From the IMG/VR virus record IMGVR_UViG_3300029957_000022, positions 1 to 36,801 of that record: a stretch of DNA of 36,801 bases; one strand, written 5' to 3'. The position numbers and the translations under genes are program-made. Of the stretch, positions 600-7,814 are shown one piece after another (positions within the stretch are counted from its first letter, which is position 1; every line of letters starts with the position of its first letter). The DNA comes from a virus. The notes beneath the pieces were generated by a model, which saw nothing but the letters and a program-made list of their open reading frames with translations, made no database searches and had not been told where the DNA came from.

Positions 600-947
600 C
601 CGGAAATGTCCCGCGATCCCGCCGTCCTGCTGTACAACCCTTATGAAGTTTTTTTGTTCGAGGGATAATCGTCCCGTAGCAGACTTCGCTTCGGGGGCAG
701 CAAAGATCGCAATTCGTTTGCCGACCATATCTGGCGTGATGGTGACTGATTTGTACCCGATGAGGTCGGTCGATCCCTTACAGAGTCCTGCATGAAGCGG
801 TCGAGCGCAAGCAAGAACCACGGTTCCGTCAGGAGTTTTTCTAACCAGTTTTCCTGTCCATCCGAGGCCAACATTGTTGCGAAAGGTTTTAATTCCATGC
901 TTCGCAAGCTCAAGCTGGGCTTCCCTCTGGACGTTTGACTCGCTCAC
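525..947 (-). CDS. VRR-NUC domain nuclease
   Basis: A 140-residue protein with the layout of stand-alone VRR-NUC nucleases: an N-terminal ESNVQREAQLELAKHGI helix, RNNVGLGWTG, then a G-STDLIGYKSV strand carrying the acidic residue and later AIFAAPEAKSATGRLSLEQ, which supplies the E-x-K and Q residues of the PD-(D/E)XK fold. These small phage proteins act as Holliday-junction or structure-specific nucleases, or are of unknown role. The start is uncertain: GTG at 947 or TTG at 953, both inside the methyltransferase gene, giving a 38-44 nt overlap. No strong ribosome site is visible, so translation is probably coupled. It is the last gene of the leftward operon and its end overlaps the convergent VapE gene. 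Confidence 0.8.
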   Translation of the reverse strand: MSESNVQREAQLELAKHGIKTFRNNVGLGWTGKLVRKTPDGTVVLACARPLHAGLCKGSTDLIGYKSVTITPDMVGKRIAIFAAPEAKSATGRLSLEQKNFIRVVQQDGGIAGHFRSLIEALQLFDLQPQAIGVDEIPDR

Positions 948-1761
948 GCGCAAAACCCATATCGTCTTGATTCAATTTAACGGGCGGAATAAACATGTCC
1001 ACCTGTTTAAGCGCGTTGGTCACACGCTGGCAACACATTTCAAAGTAAAGCGGATTTTGCTCGATTAAAATGCAGCGTCGGCCGAGCTGCACGGCCGCGA
1101 CTCCGGTTGTGCCGCTGCCGGCGAAAGGGTCGAGGATGAGCTGTCCATGCTCCGTAAAATCGGTAATCAGTTCGCGCATCAGCAGCAGCGGTTTTTCCGT
1201 TGCGTGTTTGACGGGCTGATCCTTGGCATCGCGTACGTTGTAATCACCGCGCGTTGCGGAGTTTGTGAGGTGCGTATAAACCCCACGTTTTCCCCCAGCA
1301 TTCCATTTCGCGTAGCCGGAGCCGCACCATGCCGTCACCATCGATTCATAACCTATGGCTGGGCCTTGACCATTCATTTTCGGGGTCGCGTCCGGTTTCA
1401 CCCAGACCATCGGTGATTTATATTTCAGGCCCTCTGACTCGATATCGTCGCGCCAGAAAGACACCTGCTCGGTTTGGCAGAACGCGATCAGCCAGCCCTG
1501 CACCATGCGTTTTGCGGCCGCGCAGGTCTTGCGGCGCATCGTCTCATCAAGGCTGGCGAAGTCGAGCTGCTGCCGATCCCCAGCGCCGCCGCGTTTGTTG
1601 CGGCGCGGCCGGTACTGTTTGTGCGCCTCTTCATCGTAGGGCGGGTCCATGATGAGATGGTCGATGGGTTCGTATGATCCATCGCGCTGAAGGTGGTAAT
1701 GCAGAATATTGGCGGCGTCACCCAGATATAGATCGCACGGCCCGATGGTTTCTTTACGCAT
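910..1761 (-). CDS. Site-specific DNA methyltransferase, beta class (N6-adenine or N4-cytosine)
   Basis: 283 residues. The catalytic motif DPPY is at about residues 39-42 and the S-adenosylmethionine-binding motif FAGSG at about 213-217 (in DPFAGSGTTGVAA). DPPY before FxGxG, with the target-recognition region between them, is the beta-class order seen in CcrM-like enzymes. DPPY enzymes modify the exocyclic amino group of adenine or cytosine; the target site cannot be read from sequence. The start at 1761 is chosen because ATGCGTAA overlaps the helicase stop by 8 nt and AGGG lies just upstream. No partner restriction endonuclease of a recognisable type is adjacent, apart from the VRR-NUC gene that follows. 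It may protect phage DNA from host restriction. Confidence 0.9.
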   Translation of the reverse strand: MRKETIGPCDLYLGDAANILHYHLQRDGSYEPIDHLIMDPPYDEEAHKQYRPRRNKRGGAGDRQQLDFASLDETMRRKTCAAAKRMVQGWLIAFCQTEQVSFWRDDIESEGLKYKSPMVWVKPDATPKMNGQGPAIGYESMVTAWCGSGYAKWNAGGKRGVYTHLTNSATRGDYNVRDAKDQPVKHATEKPLLLMRELITDFTEHGQLILDPFAGSGTTGVAAVQLGRRCILIEQNPLYFEMCCQRVTNALKQVDMFIPPVKLNQDDMGFARERVKRPEGSPA

Positions 1762-3193
1762 TTCGTTTCGCCCTCGCGTTCGCCTTTGCATAGTTAGGTT
1801 CGCGGCCTTCACGCGCCGCCAGTTTTATTTCAGCCCAGACGAACGGATTTTTGTATCCCTGCTCGATGCCGATTGCCTCCAGCTCTTCCCGCGTATCCGC
1901 GTTCGGCACCGGGATGCCGGCAGCTTTGCGTTGCTGCGCCAAGGCTGCTTTGTCGAGGCGCACAAGCTCACCCGGTTTATGCTCCACCTCCCGCCCATAA
2001 ACCGGATAAATAAATCCGCAATATGGGCATATGGGGGCCGGCCGATGCACGAATAGGCATTGCGTACAATTCCTGATCTTGATTTTAACTTCGTTCTCGA
2101 CTTCTTTTTTCTTTTTCTTTTTGCGACCTTCCAGCGACCACACGCGCGGCTCATCGGGCAGGAAGTGACGCCGCACGTTGCCAGCGTGATCGAGGATCAG
2201 TGCGCGTTCCTTGCCGGGATATGGCCGTAAAACACGGCCGACTTGCTGAATGTACAACGCTAGGCTCTGCGTCGGCCGCAGCAGGATCGCCGTCTCCATA
2301 GCCGGCAGATCGAATCCCTCGCCAAAGATATCGACAGATGTGAGGATAGTAATGTCACCAGCTCGGAAGGCATTAACAGCAGCCTTTCTCTGCGCGCGCG
2401 GCGTGTTGCCATCAACATGGATAGCTGAAATTCCAGCGTCTCTAAATTGCTGGGCGACATGTTCGGAATGTTTGATCGACACGCAGAACGCAACAGCGCG
2501 CTTTCCCGCCGAATGTTTCTGATATTCTCGGATTGCGTCACCTGTAATAGACGGCGTATCCATGAGGGATTCGTTTTGCTCTTTTGCATAGTCACCTGCC
2601 CGTGTATCGAGGTTGCTTACGTCCGGTATTCCAGGCTCAAAAACTTCATAGGGGGATAAGTATTTGTTATCGATGAGCCAGCGTACGCTGGGACCTTCTA
2701 CCATCGCTGTGTAAATATTTCCGAGTCCCTTTCCGTCTAAGCGTTCCGGGGTCGCGGTGAGACCCACCACTCTGGATTTTGGAAAGTAATCGAGAACGGC
2801 TTTCCAGGTCGGGCTGCAAGAATGGGCGCATTCATCGACGACGATGAGATTAGGTGTGTACGGAAATTTCTCCAGGCGTCGGCGCAGCGTGTCGATGCTG
2901 GCGATCTGGACGGGCTGTGCCGGATTGAAATCGTACCCTGCTGCGATGCACCCATGTTCGATACCCTCTTTCTGGAACGCCTCAATAGATTGATCCATCA
3001 GCTCTTGCCGATGCACAGTGAACAGCGCGGAGAAACCCTTTTTTACCGCGCCGTGGATCATTTTTGACGCAACGCGCGTCTTGCCTGATCCGGTGGCGCT
3101 GACGAGCAGAACCGCGCGATTTGTTTTTAATTTTTCGCGCGTCTGATCGATCATTAAATCCTGGTATGGGCGATCCTCGAAGTTGTCAGACAT
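1754..3193 (-). CDS. DEAD/DEAH-box superfamily 2 helicase
   Basis: 479 residues with a complete SF2 helicase core: Walker A ATGSGKT at about 33-39, DECAH (motif II) at about 120-124, TATP (motif III) at about 146-149, and motif VI QQVGRVLRPYPGK in the second RecA domain. This is the type III restriction/RecQ-RecG-like 'ResIII plus helicase C' arrangement common in phage replication regions. A lysine-rich patch is followed by CTQC-(10)-CPYC, a likely zinc ribbon. The gene overlaps the exonuclease before it and the methyltransferase after it by 8 nt each, so it is translationally coupled. Likely roles are replication or recombination fork processing, ATP-driven, in the cytoplasm. Confidence 0.9.
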   Translation of the reverse strand: MSDNFEDRPYQDLMIDQTREKLKTNRAVLLVSATGSGKTRVASKMIHGAVKKGFSALFTVHRQELMDQSIEAFQKEGIEHGCIAAGYDFNPAQPVQIASIDTLRRRLEKFPYTPNLIVVDECAHSCSPTWKAVLDYFPKSRVVGLTATPERLDGKGLGNIYTAMVEGPSVRWLIDNKYLSPYEVFEPGIPDVSNLDTRAGDYAKEQNESLMDTPSITGDAIREYQKHSAGKRAVAFCVSIKHSEHVAQQFRDAGISAIHVDGNTPRAQRKAAVNAFRAGDITILTSVDIFGEGFDLPAMETAILLRPTQSLALYIQQVGRVLRPYPGKERALILDHAGNVRRHFLPDEPRVWSLEGRKKKKKKEVENEVKIKIRNCTQCLFVHRPAPICPYCGFIYPVYGREVEHKPGELVRLDKAALAQQRKAAGIPVPNADTREELEAIGIEQGYKNPFVWAEIKLAAREGREPNYAKANARAKRNA

Positions 3194-4069: not shown

Positions 4070-4097
4070 TTGACGCGGTGGGGGATAAATGGATAAT
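4070..4097 (+). promoter_or_regulatory. Rightward promoter of the recombination operon
   Basis: TTGACG (4070-4075), 16 bp, GATAAT (4092-4097). The predicted +1 is 4104, the A of an in-frame ATG, so again a leaderless transcript. The -10-to-start context GATAATAGGGTCATG closely resembles the divergent GATATTAGGGGCATG. Confidence 0.6.
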
Positions 4098-4103
4098 AGG
4101 GTC

Positions 4104-5117
4104 ATGGCAAAAAAACCCTCACCCATCACCGCAGCCACGGCTGCGGTAAAGCAGAAAGTCGCTGCGGAACCGAAGCTGCTGAAGGAAAAGGTTGCTGAGG
4201 CAAAGCCGGTCGAGCTGAATTTTCCGAAGATCACCAAACCGGGATTCGTCGATAATATCCCGGATTATTTTTATCACAGCGATTGCTGCGATTCACCTTC
4301 CATCAGCAGCTCGATGGCGAAAACACTCATCGAAGAGTGTCCAAAAAAAATGTGGGCTAACTCCTATATGGACCCCCACAGGGTGAAAAAAGAGGAACGA
4401 AATTTTGACATGGGTCACGCGCTACATCTGATATTTTTGCAGCCGGATCAATTCGCGGCCGGCATACAGGAAATCGAGTTCGCGGATTATAGGAAAGACG
4501 AAGCGAAGGCGCAGAAGCAACTGGCATATAACGCGCAGAAAATTCCGCTGCTCACGCACGATCTGCGGCAGGTCTGGCTGATGCGCGAGGCGCTGTACGA
4601 AAATCCGATTGCACGACAGGCGTTTGAAAACGATGGCGTCTCGGAGCGCAGTTATTTTTTGAAGGATAAAGAAACCGGCGTCTGGATGAAAGCGCGCCTA
4701 GACCGTGAAATGTTTAAGCCGCGCATCATACTGGATTACAAATCCACCAGCAGCGCAAACCCAGCCGATTTCTCGCGCTCGATTTATAATTTTGGTTACT
4801 ACATTCAGCAGCCCTGGTATCAGCATGTTTACCGCGAGGTGACGGGCGAAGATATCGACGAATGTTATTTCATCGCTCAGGAAAAAGAATATCCATTTCT
4901 GCCAACCGTGGTCGAGGTGAAGGCTGAAGCCATCGAGTACGGCGAAAAGATCATGCGGAAGGCGCTACGAAAGTTTGCCGACTGTCTGAGCAGCGGGAAG
5001 TGGCACGGTTACCGCGATCCCAACCGGCCGGATCAAGACGGAGTTATCACCCTTGACCTGCCGCAGTTTGCTTATTTTAATCTGGCCGAGCGCGAGGAAC
5101 GGGGAGACTTTGAATGA
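4104..5117 (+). CDS. RecE/exonuclease VIII-like PD-(D/E)XK nuclease
   Basis: 337 residues from ATG 4104. After a Lys/Ala-rich N-terminus (about 1-45) comes a RecE-type core: SPSISSSMAKTL, GHALH (H105), SERSYF (E181), KARLD (D200), ILDYKST (D211, K213) and the YYIQQPWYQ glutamines at about 235. These are the metal and catalytic positions of the phage PD-(D/E)XK family that resects double-stranded DNA 5' to 3' for single-strand annealing. ATG 4089, preceded by GGTGGGGGATAA, is an alternative start adding five residues, but it lies upstream of the predicted transcription start. The gene overlaps the TOPRIM gene by ATGA. With the downstream ATPase it forms a recombination module. Confidence 0.85.
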   Translation: MAKKPSPITAATAAVKQKVAAEPKLLKEKVAEAKPVELNFPKITKPGFVDNIPDYFYHSDCCDSPSISSSMAKTLIEECPKKMWANSYMDPHRVKKEERNFDMGHALHLIFLQPDQFAAGIQEIEFADYRKDEAKAQKQLAYNAQKIPLLTHDLRQVWLMREALYENPIARQAFENDGVSERSYFLKDKETGVWMKARLDREMFKPRIILDYKSTSSANPADFSRSIYNFGYYIQQPWYQHVYREVTGEDIDECYFIAQEKEYPFLPTVVEVKAEAIEYGEKIMRKALRKFADCLSSGKWHGYRDPNRPDQDGVITLDLPQFAYFNLAEREERGDFE

Positions 5118-6019
5118 AACAGGCGTATCTGAAAAAACGGTTTAACTCATCGTCGATCAAGCTGATAGAGCATGCCAATACCATCATCGATGAATATCAG
5201 GGCCAGGGCTATACGCTCACCCTGCGGCAGCTCTATTACCAGTTTGTCAGCCGCGACCTAATTCCAAATTCCCAGAAAGAATATAAGCGTCTCGGCAGCG
5301 TCATCAACGATGCGCGGCTGGCCGGCGAGATCGATTGGGATGCCATCGAGGATCGCACCCGTAACCTGCGCGGCCTTCAGACATGGGAATCCCCTGCTGA
5401 AATTCTCGAAGAGTCGGCCAACAGATACCGGGTAAATCCGTGGCTGGATCAGGATAATTATTGCGAGGTGTGGATTGAAAAGGATGCGCTGGTCGGCGTC
5501 ATCGAAGGGCCTTGTAATAAGCTGCGCGTCGATTATTTTGCGTGTCGCGGTTACACATCTCAGTCGGAGCAGCGCGCGGCCGGGGAACGGATCATCAATA
5601 AAATTCAGGCCGGGAAGAGCGTCACTATATTCCATCTGGGCGATCACGATCCCAGCGGAATTGATATGACAAGAGACAACCTAGACCTAGACCGACTTAC
5701 CATGTTCCTTCAGGATAATTTCGATCAAAGAAATTTCAGCGTTGAACGCCTCGCGCTGAATATGGATCAGGTTAAAAAGTACAAACCGCCTCCCAACCCG
5801 GCAAAAATGACGGACAGCCGTTTCGGTGGCTACGTCAATAAGTTCGGAAATAAATCCTGGGAGCTGGACGCGCTCGACCCAAGCATGATCGGAAAGCTGA
5901 TCGAAAAAAATATTCGATCACTGATTAACCAGCGGGCATGGGATGCCACAACGGAACGTGAGAGCGCGCAGGTCGAAAAGCTGCGCGAGTTCGTGGATGA
6001 AGCAAGGGATATGGACTGA
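5114..6019 (+). CDS. Topo VI-A/Spo11-like TOPRIM protein (Mini-A-like)
   Basis: 301 residues. An N-terminal winged-helix-like region holds TLRQLYYQF (residues 36-44), which resembles the catalytic tyrosine motif of topoisomerase VI subunit A and Spo11 (candidate Tyr41 or Tyr42). A TOPRIM domain follows with VWIEKDAL (E122) and FHLGDHDPSGIDM (D177, D179), the metal-binding glutamate and D-x-D. Length and layout fit the 'Mini-A' proteins described in mobile elements, which lack a B (ATPase) subunit. Such proteins might cut or rejoin DNA during recombination; activity is unproven. It sits in a coupled operon between a RecE-like nuclease (4 nt overlap) and a RecA-like ATPase (1 nt overlap). No GHKL ATPase gene is seen nearby. 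Confidence 0.75.
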   Translation: MKQAYLKKRFNSSSIKLIEHANTIIDEYQGQGYTLTLRQLYYQFVSRDLIPNSQKEYKRLGSVINDARLAGEIDWDAIEDRTRNLRGLQTWESPAEILEESANRYRVNPWLDQDNYCEVWIEKDALVGVIEGPCNKLRVDYFACRGYTSQSEQRAAGERIINKIQAGKSVTIFHLGDHDPSGIDMTRDNLDLDRLTMFLQDNFDQRNFSVERLALNMDQVKKYKPPPNPAKMTDSRFGGYVNKFGNKSWELDALDPSMIGKLIEKNIRSLINQRAWDATTERESAQVEKLREFVDEARDMD

Positions 6020-7053
6020 TGCCAACCGTAAACTTCGCCAAGGCTGAAGCCACGCGCCGCAGGGTTCTGCTCTGCATGATCGGTGAGTCCACATCTGGCA
6101 AGACCTATAGCGCGCTGCTGATCGCCTGGGGGCTTGCGAAGGGCCTGAAGAAAGATGGCAAGCCGTTCCTCATGGACACAGAGAACGGCCGTGGCGCTGA
6201 TTACGCCGACGATGACGTTGTGGGTGGATACATGTACGGTGAGCTGACGCCGCCGTTTACCCCGGAACGTTTCATTGAGGGGATCGGTGACGCTGAGAAA
6301 GCCGGCGCGGAGGTAATGATAACCGACACCTTCAGCCACGAATGGGAAGGTCTAGGTGGAATTATCGAGATCGCAGACTCGGCCAAGACCAAAGATGGTG
6401 GCGATCTCAGCGGCCTGGTGAAATGGTCGAAGCCAAAAGGCCGCCACAAAAAACTGATGCACTTCCTCGGTCGCAGCAACATGCACCATATTCTGTCGCT
6501 GCGCGCGAAGGATGACATGGAGCAGGTCGATCAGCTCGATGAGTCCACTGGCCGCACGAAAAAAACTATCGTGAACAAGGGGAAAAAATCGGTTCAGGAA
6601 AAGCGGTTCAAATTCGAGATGACCGTGCAGCTCATCATGGAAGATGGCGAGGACCGCGAGGGTTTTTATAAAGTCAGTAAATGCCCGAAAAACCTGCGGC
6701 ACATCTTCAAGACCGGCAACCGGATATCGATGGAAACAGGCGCGGCGCTGGCCGATTGGGTGAACCGCAGGAAGCCCATCGATAAGGAGCTGGAGAAACT
6801 TCGGTTCGCTGGCGAGGCGGCGGCCGCCAAGGGCAAGGAAGAGTTTTTCAAATGGTGGAATCTCAAAGACGTAAAGCCGAGCTGGGCGAAGCTGAAACCG
6901 TTTATGGATAATTTTTCGTCGATATCCAAGACGGCCGACGATGACGCCGCGCGGAAAAAGGCTGATGAGGCTTTATCGGTCAAGACCGAAAAACAGGAAG
7001 CTCGCAGCAAGACAGCGCCGTTCGATCCGGCCAATCCAGCCATCGAGGAATAA
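6019..7053 (+). CDS. RecA-like P-loop ATPase (AAA_24/Sak4-like), probable recombination protein
   Basis: 344 residues with Walker A GESTSGKT (22-29), an acidic DTENGRG region at about 53-59 and Walker B VMITD (99-103). The overall plan matches phage RecA-core single-domain ATPases of the AAA_24 or Sak4 group, used in annealing or strand exchange, often next to an exonuclease and single-strand binding protein. The C-terminal third is Lys/Ala/Glu-rich and probably partly disordered. It directly follows the TOPRIM gene (TGATG overlap). Assignment to Sak4 specifically is tentative. Confidence 0.75.
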   Translation: MPTVNFAKAEATRRRVLLCMIGESTSGKTYSALLIAWGLAKGLKKDGKPFLMDTENGRGADYADDDVVGGYMYGELTPPFTPERFIEGIGDAEKAGAEVMITDTFSHEWEGLGGIIEIADSAKTKDGGDLSGLVKWSKPKGRHKKLMHFLGRSNMHHILSLRAKDDMEQVDQLDESTGRTKKTIVNKGKKSVQEKRFKFEMTVQLIMEDGEDREGFYKVSKCPKNLRHIFKTGNRISMETGAALADWVNRRKPIDKELEKLRFAGEAAAAKGKEEFFKWWNLKDVKPSWAKLKPFMDNFSSISKTADDDAARKKADEALSVKTEKQEARSKTAPFDPANPAIEE

Positions 7054-7054
7054 C

Positions 7055-7183
7055 GTGGCCGCCACCAAAAAAACATTGAAGTGCTGCGCGGCCGCAATTT
7101 TAATATGCGTTTCCGGTGTTCTCGCGTACCTGCTGCTGTTTATTATTTTCTGGCCGCTGGTGGCCAACCTGCCTGGTGGATAA
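7055..7183 (+). CDS. 42-residue single-pass membrane protein
   Basis: GTG start at 7055, preceded by GAGGAATAAC, one base after the ATPase stop. The short protein has a basic N-terminus (AATKKTLK) then one long hydrophobic segment from CCAAAILICVSG through AYLLLFIIFWPLV, ending NLPGG. It fits exactly between the ATPase and the next ATG (7185), which supports a real gene. No known function; a small inner-membrane protein, possibly involved in exclusion or membrane anchoring. Confidence 0.6.
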   Translation: MAATKKTLKCCAAAILICVSGVLAYLLLFIIFWPLVANLPGG

Positions 7184-7184
7184 A

Positions 7185-7814
7185 ATGGTCAAGACCAAAG
7201 ATTACGATGTGCGCTCCGGCATCGTGCGCCAGCTCTTATCCGAAGGCATTGAGAGAAAAAATATCAGGCATGAAATTACGCTCGATACGTCGAGCAGCGG
7301 CGGCCGCGCCGATCTTGTTATACTGACGGACGCCGCGATCATAGGTATCGAAATTAAAAGCGGCAGCGACACCATAGACAGATGCAGCGCACAGTTCGAG
7401 GCATACCGCACTTCCTTTGACGCCATACATCTTGTCATCGATGCGGACCTTTCAAAGAAAATTACAGAGAAATTAGATTGGGATGATATTATTTTTCACA
7501 GCGAAGAGCTGCGCTTCAGTAATAAGTGGAATGATAAACGTGCATTACCAGGCGGATTACGTTTTGAGATATCGAAGATCAACAGCAGCGAAACCAGCGC
7601 CATATCGATGGCACGGCTCCTGTGGCGCGCGGAAACCGAATTTGTTACTGGAAGCATTGGGCATAGAATTAAACGCCGTAGCGATGCCCTGAAGTGGATC
7701 AGGGAGAACGCTTGCCTAAAGGAGCTGCGGCCGCTAGTCGTAAAAATGCTGCGCCAGCGCATCCCAAATCTCTGGGAAAATTCGTTCTGGTCTAAATTCG
7801 ACCAAAAAGCATAA
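7185..7814 (+). CDS. sce7726-family PD-(D/E)XK nuclease-like protein
   Basis: 209 residues. An N-terminal helix (DYDVRSGIVRQLL) leads to HEITL (E30), GGRADLVIL (D43) and IGIEIKSGSDT (E56, K58), a clear PD-(D/E)XK core. The order and the IEIKSGSDT-x-DR-x4-Q signature match the sce7726 family found in phages and defence-rich regions. ATG 7185 is preceded by GGTGG. It ends the rightward operon and its 3' end overlaps the convergent DUF3309 gene by 23 bp. Biological role is unknown; it may be a restriction-like or repair nuclease. Confidence 0.75.
   Translation: MVKTKDYDVRSGIVRQLLSEGIERKNIRHEITLDTSSSGGRADLVILTDAAIIGIEIKSGSDTIDRCSAQFEAYRTSFDAIHLVIDADLSKKITEKLDWDDIIFHSEELRFSNKWNDKRALPGGLRFEISKINSSETSAISMARLLWRAETEFVTGSIGHRIKRRSDALKWIRENACLKELRPLVVKMLRQRIPNLWENSFWSKFDQKA

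Follow-up and report, generated by a model that had tools for sequence, protein, structure and literature searches.

What an orphan relative of Spo11 and of the A subunit of topoisomerase VI (Topo VI-A) does in a phage, and whether the position of its gene between two recombination genes tells us, are the questions raised by the locus described here. It lies in a 36,801-base IMG/VR virus record that was analysed over its whole length (hereafter the window) and that carries a contractile-tail phage gene set of sheath, baseplate, capsid, portal and terminase; the window is a complete virus contig as recorded, and the virus itself may be incomplete. A preliminary description of the sequence had suggested that a Spo11-like break or nick made here feeds end resection and annealing, in a phage recombination pathway not yet described.

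A Mini-A gene between an exonuclease and an ATPase

The gene occupies positions 5114..6019 of the + strand, begins with ATG and encodes a 301-aa protein of Topo VI-A/Spo11-like type (winged-helix 5Y-CAP plus TOPRIM). On the same strand it is preceded by the gene of a 342-aa RecE-like PDDEXK exonuclease (4089..5117; PF12684, E 1e-22; phrog_412 exonuclease VIII, E 8e-82) and followed by that of a 344-aa RecA/Rad51-fold ATPase related to the AAA_24/Sak4 annealases (6019..7053). The latter assignment draws on a match to PF13479 (AAA_24) of 26.7 bits, slightly below the 27-bit cut-off, and on a model with a pLDDT of 92.4 whose top PDB match is the RAD51-paralog complex BCDX2 (E 8e-8). The coupling to both neighbours by overlaps, as first described, is readily seen: the sequence ATGA contains both the Mini-A ATG at 5114 and the exonuclease stop TGA (5115-5117), and TGATG contains both the Mini-A stop TGA (6017-6019) and the ATPase ATG at 6019. 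A recent foreign origin of the gene is unsupported by base composition, with a GC content of 51.2% compared to 50.8% for the exonuclease gene and 53.7% overall.

Judged from its sequence, the reading frame at 5114-6019 is a real gene and not a chance ORF, since the protein matches phrog_6247 “DNA topoisomerase” (E 2e-113) and has many relatives in phages and contigs. Homologues with 39-53% identity are present in 75 phage records, and further relatives number at least 536 in viral contigs and 210 in genome contigs; they belong to phages and prophages of highly diverse bacteria and some archaea. One of these relatives, the Mini-A of Pseudomonas phage NP1 (42.8% identity across 98% of the query), is the example of the subfamily given in a 2021 review (Fig. 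4A of PMC7614492). Mini-A proteins are described, in sources that follow Takahashi et al. 2020, as type IIB topoisomerase-like proteins from bacterial and archaeal viruses (PMC7614492, PMC8185306, PMC8084294), and reviews regard them as mostly from mobile elements or viruses and uncharacterised (PMC8185306, PMC11302465, PMC8084294). With homology over its full length, a truncated Topo VI-A-like fold, a viral gene and no B subunit detected, the 301-aa protein is almost certainly a Mini-A, and the designation as an orphan Topo VI-A/Spo11-like protein of this type is borne out by the homology to NP1 together with the fold match described below. The family has already been named, and the window protein adds one more uncharacterised member to it. 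We found no published activity for any Mini-A in the literature and the reviews assign no function, although the protein is encoded by those 75 phage records and by hundreds of the contigs searched.

Scans of the single protein with Pfam and NCBIfam assigned no family, and a sequence search of PDB chains with the protein (P0001) and its 22-member profile gave no significant match. Takahashi et al. are reported to describe a subfamily-specific C-terminal motif in Mini-A, and we would guess that this is perhaps the WELDAL in the C-terminal part of the window protein. In Roseobacter phage RDJL Phi 1 (HM151342.1, 14412-15271) the Mini-A match is split across two annotated ORFs, so that either the gene is broken or the sequence contains an error; in the related RDJL Phi 2 the Mini-A gene is intact and in one piece.

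Fold, active site and B subunit

The AlphaFold2 model of the protein, built with 113 sequences, has a mean pLDDT of 91.9, and its sole PDB match with E <0.001 is Methanosarcina mazei Topo VI-A (E 3.7e-5, probability 1.00, 317 columns), such that structure prediction recovers the expected fold. The global TM-score to this protein is low at 0.32, which we tentatively read as reflecting a differing orientation of the domains in the model. A fold search against viral models gave one short significant match and no others.

The putative catalytic tyrosine motif and TOPRIM triad named in the preliminary description are present as stated, with conservation assessed in 152 non-redundant sequences, of which 151 span the catalytic columns. 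The TLRQLYYQF motif (residues 36-44; 5219..5245, + strand, as are all codons given here) lines up with STLRELYY in the archaeal Topo VI-A proteins. It contains R38 (5225-5227) and Y42 (5237-5239), and downstream of it lie the TOPRIM metal-site glutamate E122 (5477..5479), the DxD motif D177-H-D179 (5642..5650) and E250 within WELDAL (5861..5863); R38, Y42, E122, D177, D179 and E250 are each invariant in 151/151 covering relatives. The choice between Y41 and Y42 had been left undecided at first. Since Y41 varies in the same set (F in 4, H in 1) and Y42 is invariant, the tyrosine conservation expected among homologues is upheld for Y42 and not for Y41, and Y42 is the nucleophile candidate. Mouse SPO11 also has two tyrosines in tandem, and there too the second one, Y138, is catalytic (PMC11922746).

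In M. mazei Topo VI-A, the corresponding chemistry involves Y106, E202, D254 and D256, along with a clasp between R102 and E342 whose E342Q variant cuts more (PMC13040014). A profile alignment to 57 archaeal Topo VI-A sequences places Y42, E122 and D177/D179 in register, with a weak score (E 0.014), and makes E122 the counterpart of E202 and the two aspartates those of D254/D256; in a shallower Topo VI-A profile comparison (E 0.025) the tyrosine region alone aligned. The spacing from R to Y is four in all Mini-A, matching R102/Y106. An ELDAL-like motif occurs in 146/152 Mini-A and ExxA[FL] near the C-terminus in 50/57 archaeal Topo VI-A, from which we infer, outside the computed alignment, that E250 is the equivalent of E342. 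An R38/E250 clasp like that of R102/E342 in Topo VI is therefore proposed as probable. It is also important to consider the size of the protein, which at 301 aa compares with a Topo VI-A median of 366, and the number of residues before the tyrosine, with a median of 42 in Mini-A and 99 in Topo VI-A.

That no B subunit accompanies the protein was confirmed by domain search, as neither Topo-VIb_trans nor HATPase_c was found in the 36.8-kb record while positive controls matched. Topo-VIb_trans was also not found in 50 other Mini-A phage records, some of which may be incomplete, again with positive controls. The window thus holds no GHKL ATPase (B) module of the kind that marks a type IIB topoisomerase, and we do not class Mini-A as a true type IIB enzyme. 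Without a Topo VI-B no ATP-driven strand passage is expected, so that it is doubtful whether Mini-A could act as a true type II topoisomerase. We considered the downstream ATPase as a substitute for Topo VI-B and rejected this as unsupported, as it has a RecA fold rather than a GHKL fold and partners the exonuclease in phages that have no Mini-A. The genomes G071, G080, G089, G099 and G085 hold a second TOP6A-Spo11_Toprim match (the first four archaeal, more distant and 428-444 aa long, and that of G085 in an 872-aa frame), and these second frames are possibly Topo VIII-like proteins.

The recombination module with and without Mini-A

The window has a PDDEXK exonuclease beside a RecA-fold, annealase-like ATPase for which annealing is predicted, and the two together make up a recombination module. 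Sak4 of HK620, a RecA homologue, carries out annealing that is stimulated by SSB (PMC5928155), and in PaMx25 Mini-A and a Sak4-like gene overlap by one base. The closest relatives of the window's ATPase in viral contigs, at 78% identity, come from three loci (L187-L189) that also match the window in the exonuclease (69%), helicase (82%) and DnaQ-like protein (69%). In these the exonuclease stop overlaps the ATPase start, also in the TGATG form, with no gene between, and Mini-A is absent from all three records, two of which are no more than short pieces; repeated sampling of a single virus could account for all three. Mini-A is likewise present at 0/84 ATPase loci. The exonuclease lies directly upstream of the ATPase (within 200 nt) in 35/63 non-redundant loci and 200-2,500 nt upstream in a further 17/63 (loci among L198-L266), where the gap holds unknown genes or one for a DnaQ-like exonuclease, for Nmad5 or for an SbcC-like ATPase, and it looks like a frequent insertion site. 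The pair without Mini-A is thus the common state, and most simply Mini-A would have entered the lineage of the window as a single inserted gene. A second block missing from the closest relative, L189, lies on the other side of the ATPase from Mini-A (7057-7814, + strand), and consists of a short ORF followed by a gene for a PDDEXK-like protein (7185-7814, + strand; phrog_984, with weak HSDR_N_2 and MmcB-like matches).

Viewed from Mini-A, the flanking genes are highly variable across loci. The exonuclease family of the window occurs within ~6 kb of Mini-A at 4/181 loci and its ATPase family near Mini-A at 2/181, with the window counted in both. As such similarity-based counts of neighbours undercounted functional classes, we added class-level Pfam scans comparing 143 proteins within 2 kb of Mini-A (a trimmed set) to 150 proteins at 2-6 kb. 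Among the matches listed, which cover the top 25 families, the near set gave ERF (3/143) and YqaJ (2/143) and the far set RecT, AAA_24 and PDDEXK_1 (2/150 each), that is, no excess of recombination genes near Mini-A, with small counts on both sides. A conserved neighbour system for Mini-A was therefore rejected, given the variable flanks, the 0/84 and 4/181 counts and the lack of a near excess, and Mini-A is an accessory gene with no fixed partner. The proposal that the neighbours reveal a recombination pathway finds no support in these same counts, nor in the 2/181 for the ATPase or in the close relatives that run the exonuclease-ATPase pair without Mini-A.

The idea of a recombination setting fares better in part. 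Mini-A does sit inside a recombination module in the window, and exonuclease/annealase operons recur in its subclade, a group of 29 members with a FastTree local support of 0.94: an exonuclease or annealase was detected at ≤2.6 kb in 7/29 members of this subclade compared to 6/123 of the others (Fisher p 0.0035; leaving out the window gives 0.010), in a post hoc test in which three of the seven positives are related Rhizobiales prophages. What does not stand is the generality of this setting, as Mini-A frequently occurs without such neighbours. Such operons were seen at L102-L105, L026 and L127: in Rhizobiales prophages a YqaJ-like exonuclease and a RecT-like protein precede Mini-A, and L127 has the order RecE-like exonuclease, RecT-like protein, small ORF and Mini-A; the two RecT-like labels come from how the proteins cluster, where their genes lie and what the sequences look like, and neither matches a curated family. 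Relatives of an N6/N4 DNA methyltransferase encoded in the window at 910-1812 (- strand) also occur near Mini-A in Rhizobiales prophages.

Possible activities and known systems

Computation gives a winged-helix plus TOPRIM fold, catalytic residues that are fully conserved, no B subunit that could be detected, and a lone gene apparently inserted between an exonuclease and a RecA-fold ATPase that pair without it in relatives. The reading that we favour is that Mini-A serves the phage as an accessory enzyme which, without a B subunit, cleaves and rejoins phage DNA while it replicates; to this we would tentatively give somewhat less than an even chance. Mini-A would then amount to the half of a type IIB topoisomerase that cleaves DNA, operating with no ATPase (B) subunit. 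By analogy to the biochemistry of Topo VI-A and SPO11, a dimer would form on bent or supercoiled DNA, Y42 of each copy would attack the backbone at the metal site of the other (E122/D177/D179), and the enzyme would become linked to the DNA 5' end. The R38/E250 pair may restrain the tyrosine, comparable to the R102/E342 clasp of Topo VI, such that cutting would be gated, largely reversible and ATP-free. By transiently cutting replicating phage DNA and sealing it again, the enzyme might relieve supercoiling or entanglement, which is the least certain step, and Mini-A could be an optional aid acquired into whichever early operon a phage has. There is precedent for chemistry of this kind: mouse SPO11 cuts without partners, needs the second of its two tandem tyrosines and can reseal nicks to give topoisomers (PMC11922746), and Topo VIII of M. 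marina and A. degensii shows relaxation or cleavage without ATP (PMC7614492). The lack of a fixed partner and the apparent gain as a single gene fit a self-sufficient activity, while the recurring exonuclease/annealase operons of the subclade count against the favoured reading and would suit a recombination role.

Such a role would have Mini-A break both strands of phage DNA, or nick it, in a programmed and essentially irreversible way; once released, the ends would be resected by the exonuclease and passed to the ATPase for annealing or pairing. This is unlikely in our estimation, and reversible topological use is favoured over it. The Spo11-type active site is intact, SPO11 dimers alone are enough for breaks (PMC11922746), and both the translational overlaps with the exonuclease and ATPase and the post hoc subclade linkage (7/29 vs. 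6/123, p 0.0035) are in keeping with programmed breaks, but the exonuclease-ATPase pair lacks Mini-A in the closest relatives and at all 84 loci, and most Mini-A loci in turn lack these neighbours, with no excess in the near/far comparison. After a Spo11-type cut, moreover, the enzyme stays covalently attached to the 5' ends (PMC11922746), and these capped ends would need release, so direct resection by a 5'-3' exonuclease is not expected; a Rad50/SbcC-like AAA_23 ATPase is found in just 7/50 Mini-A phage records, though a host nuclease could release the ends. The genomic position, which was the main argument for a new pathway, does not hold up well. It seems slightly less probable again that Mini-A is here a B-independent phage Spo11 whose programmed breaks feed the adjoining exonuclease and ATPase, in which case the initiation of meiotic recombination would have a stand-alone counterpart in prokaryotes.

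About as improbable as this last proposal is a nuclease directed against host, plasmid or rival phage DNA, comparable to the TOPRIM nucleases of Wadjet (JetD) or Gabija, with the phage's own DNA spared. TOPRIM dimers related to Topo VI-A do serve as defence nucleases (PMC13040014), weak DUF2399 scores were obtained for 8/22 Mini-A (best E 1.6e-4), and the gene is accessory and solitary, yet nucleases of the Wadjet/Gabija type work with partner ATPases, for which no consistent candidate was found at Mini-A, and the strictly kept tyrosine argues for transesterification over metal-only hydrolysis. DNA methyltransferases, which could protect, are among the commonest near neighbours, but the Pfam DNA_methylase counts among the matches listed are only 6/143 near and 2/150 far. 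We give the least weight to the resolution of replication or recombination intermediates, in which Mini-A would cut or unlink joint molecules, catenanes or concatemers before packaging. The Mini-A gene of PspYZU01 lies directly before the terminase genes, terminase domains occur in 3/143 near proteins (among the matches listed) and Mini-A otherwise tends to lie among DNA polymerase, helicase and nuclease genes; the terminase neighbour is however an exception, and a preference for junctions or catenanes is hypothetical.

Closely related phages with and without Mini-A in the same exonuclease-ATPase module make the question of function testable, as do the naming of Y42 as nucleophile candidate and the proposed R38/E250 clasp, from which a mutant that cuts more, like that of Topo VI, is predicted. 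If Mini-A is a simple enzyme that acts without B, it would also be informative on the way in which Spo11 came to need little help from a B partner.

Relative to the Topo VI-A of archaea and plants, Mini-A shares the fold and catalytic residues, and probably keeps the clasp residues, but is ~60 residues shorter, has a short N-terminus before the tyrosine and lacks a Topo VI-B. With Spo11 it has in common the catalytic core and a tandem tyrosine pair with the second as the candidate, which makes B-independent chemistry plausible, whereas it is phage-borne and has no Rec102/TOP6BL-like partner, and programmed breaks by it are hypothetical. The two flanking genes of the window make a module like the Sak4/RecE-like recombination modules of other phages, although in relatives of the window phage this module is complete without Mini-A. 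The closest likeness is to the published Mini-A, given the end-to-end homology to the NP1 protein and the occurrence in a phage of a short Topo VI-A homologue without B; no tested feature differs from these, and of all loci examined the one in the window phage was alone in having Mini-A flanked by a RecE-like exonuclease and a RecA-fold ATPase.
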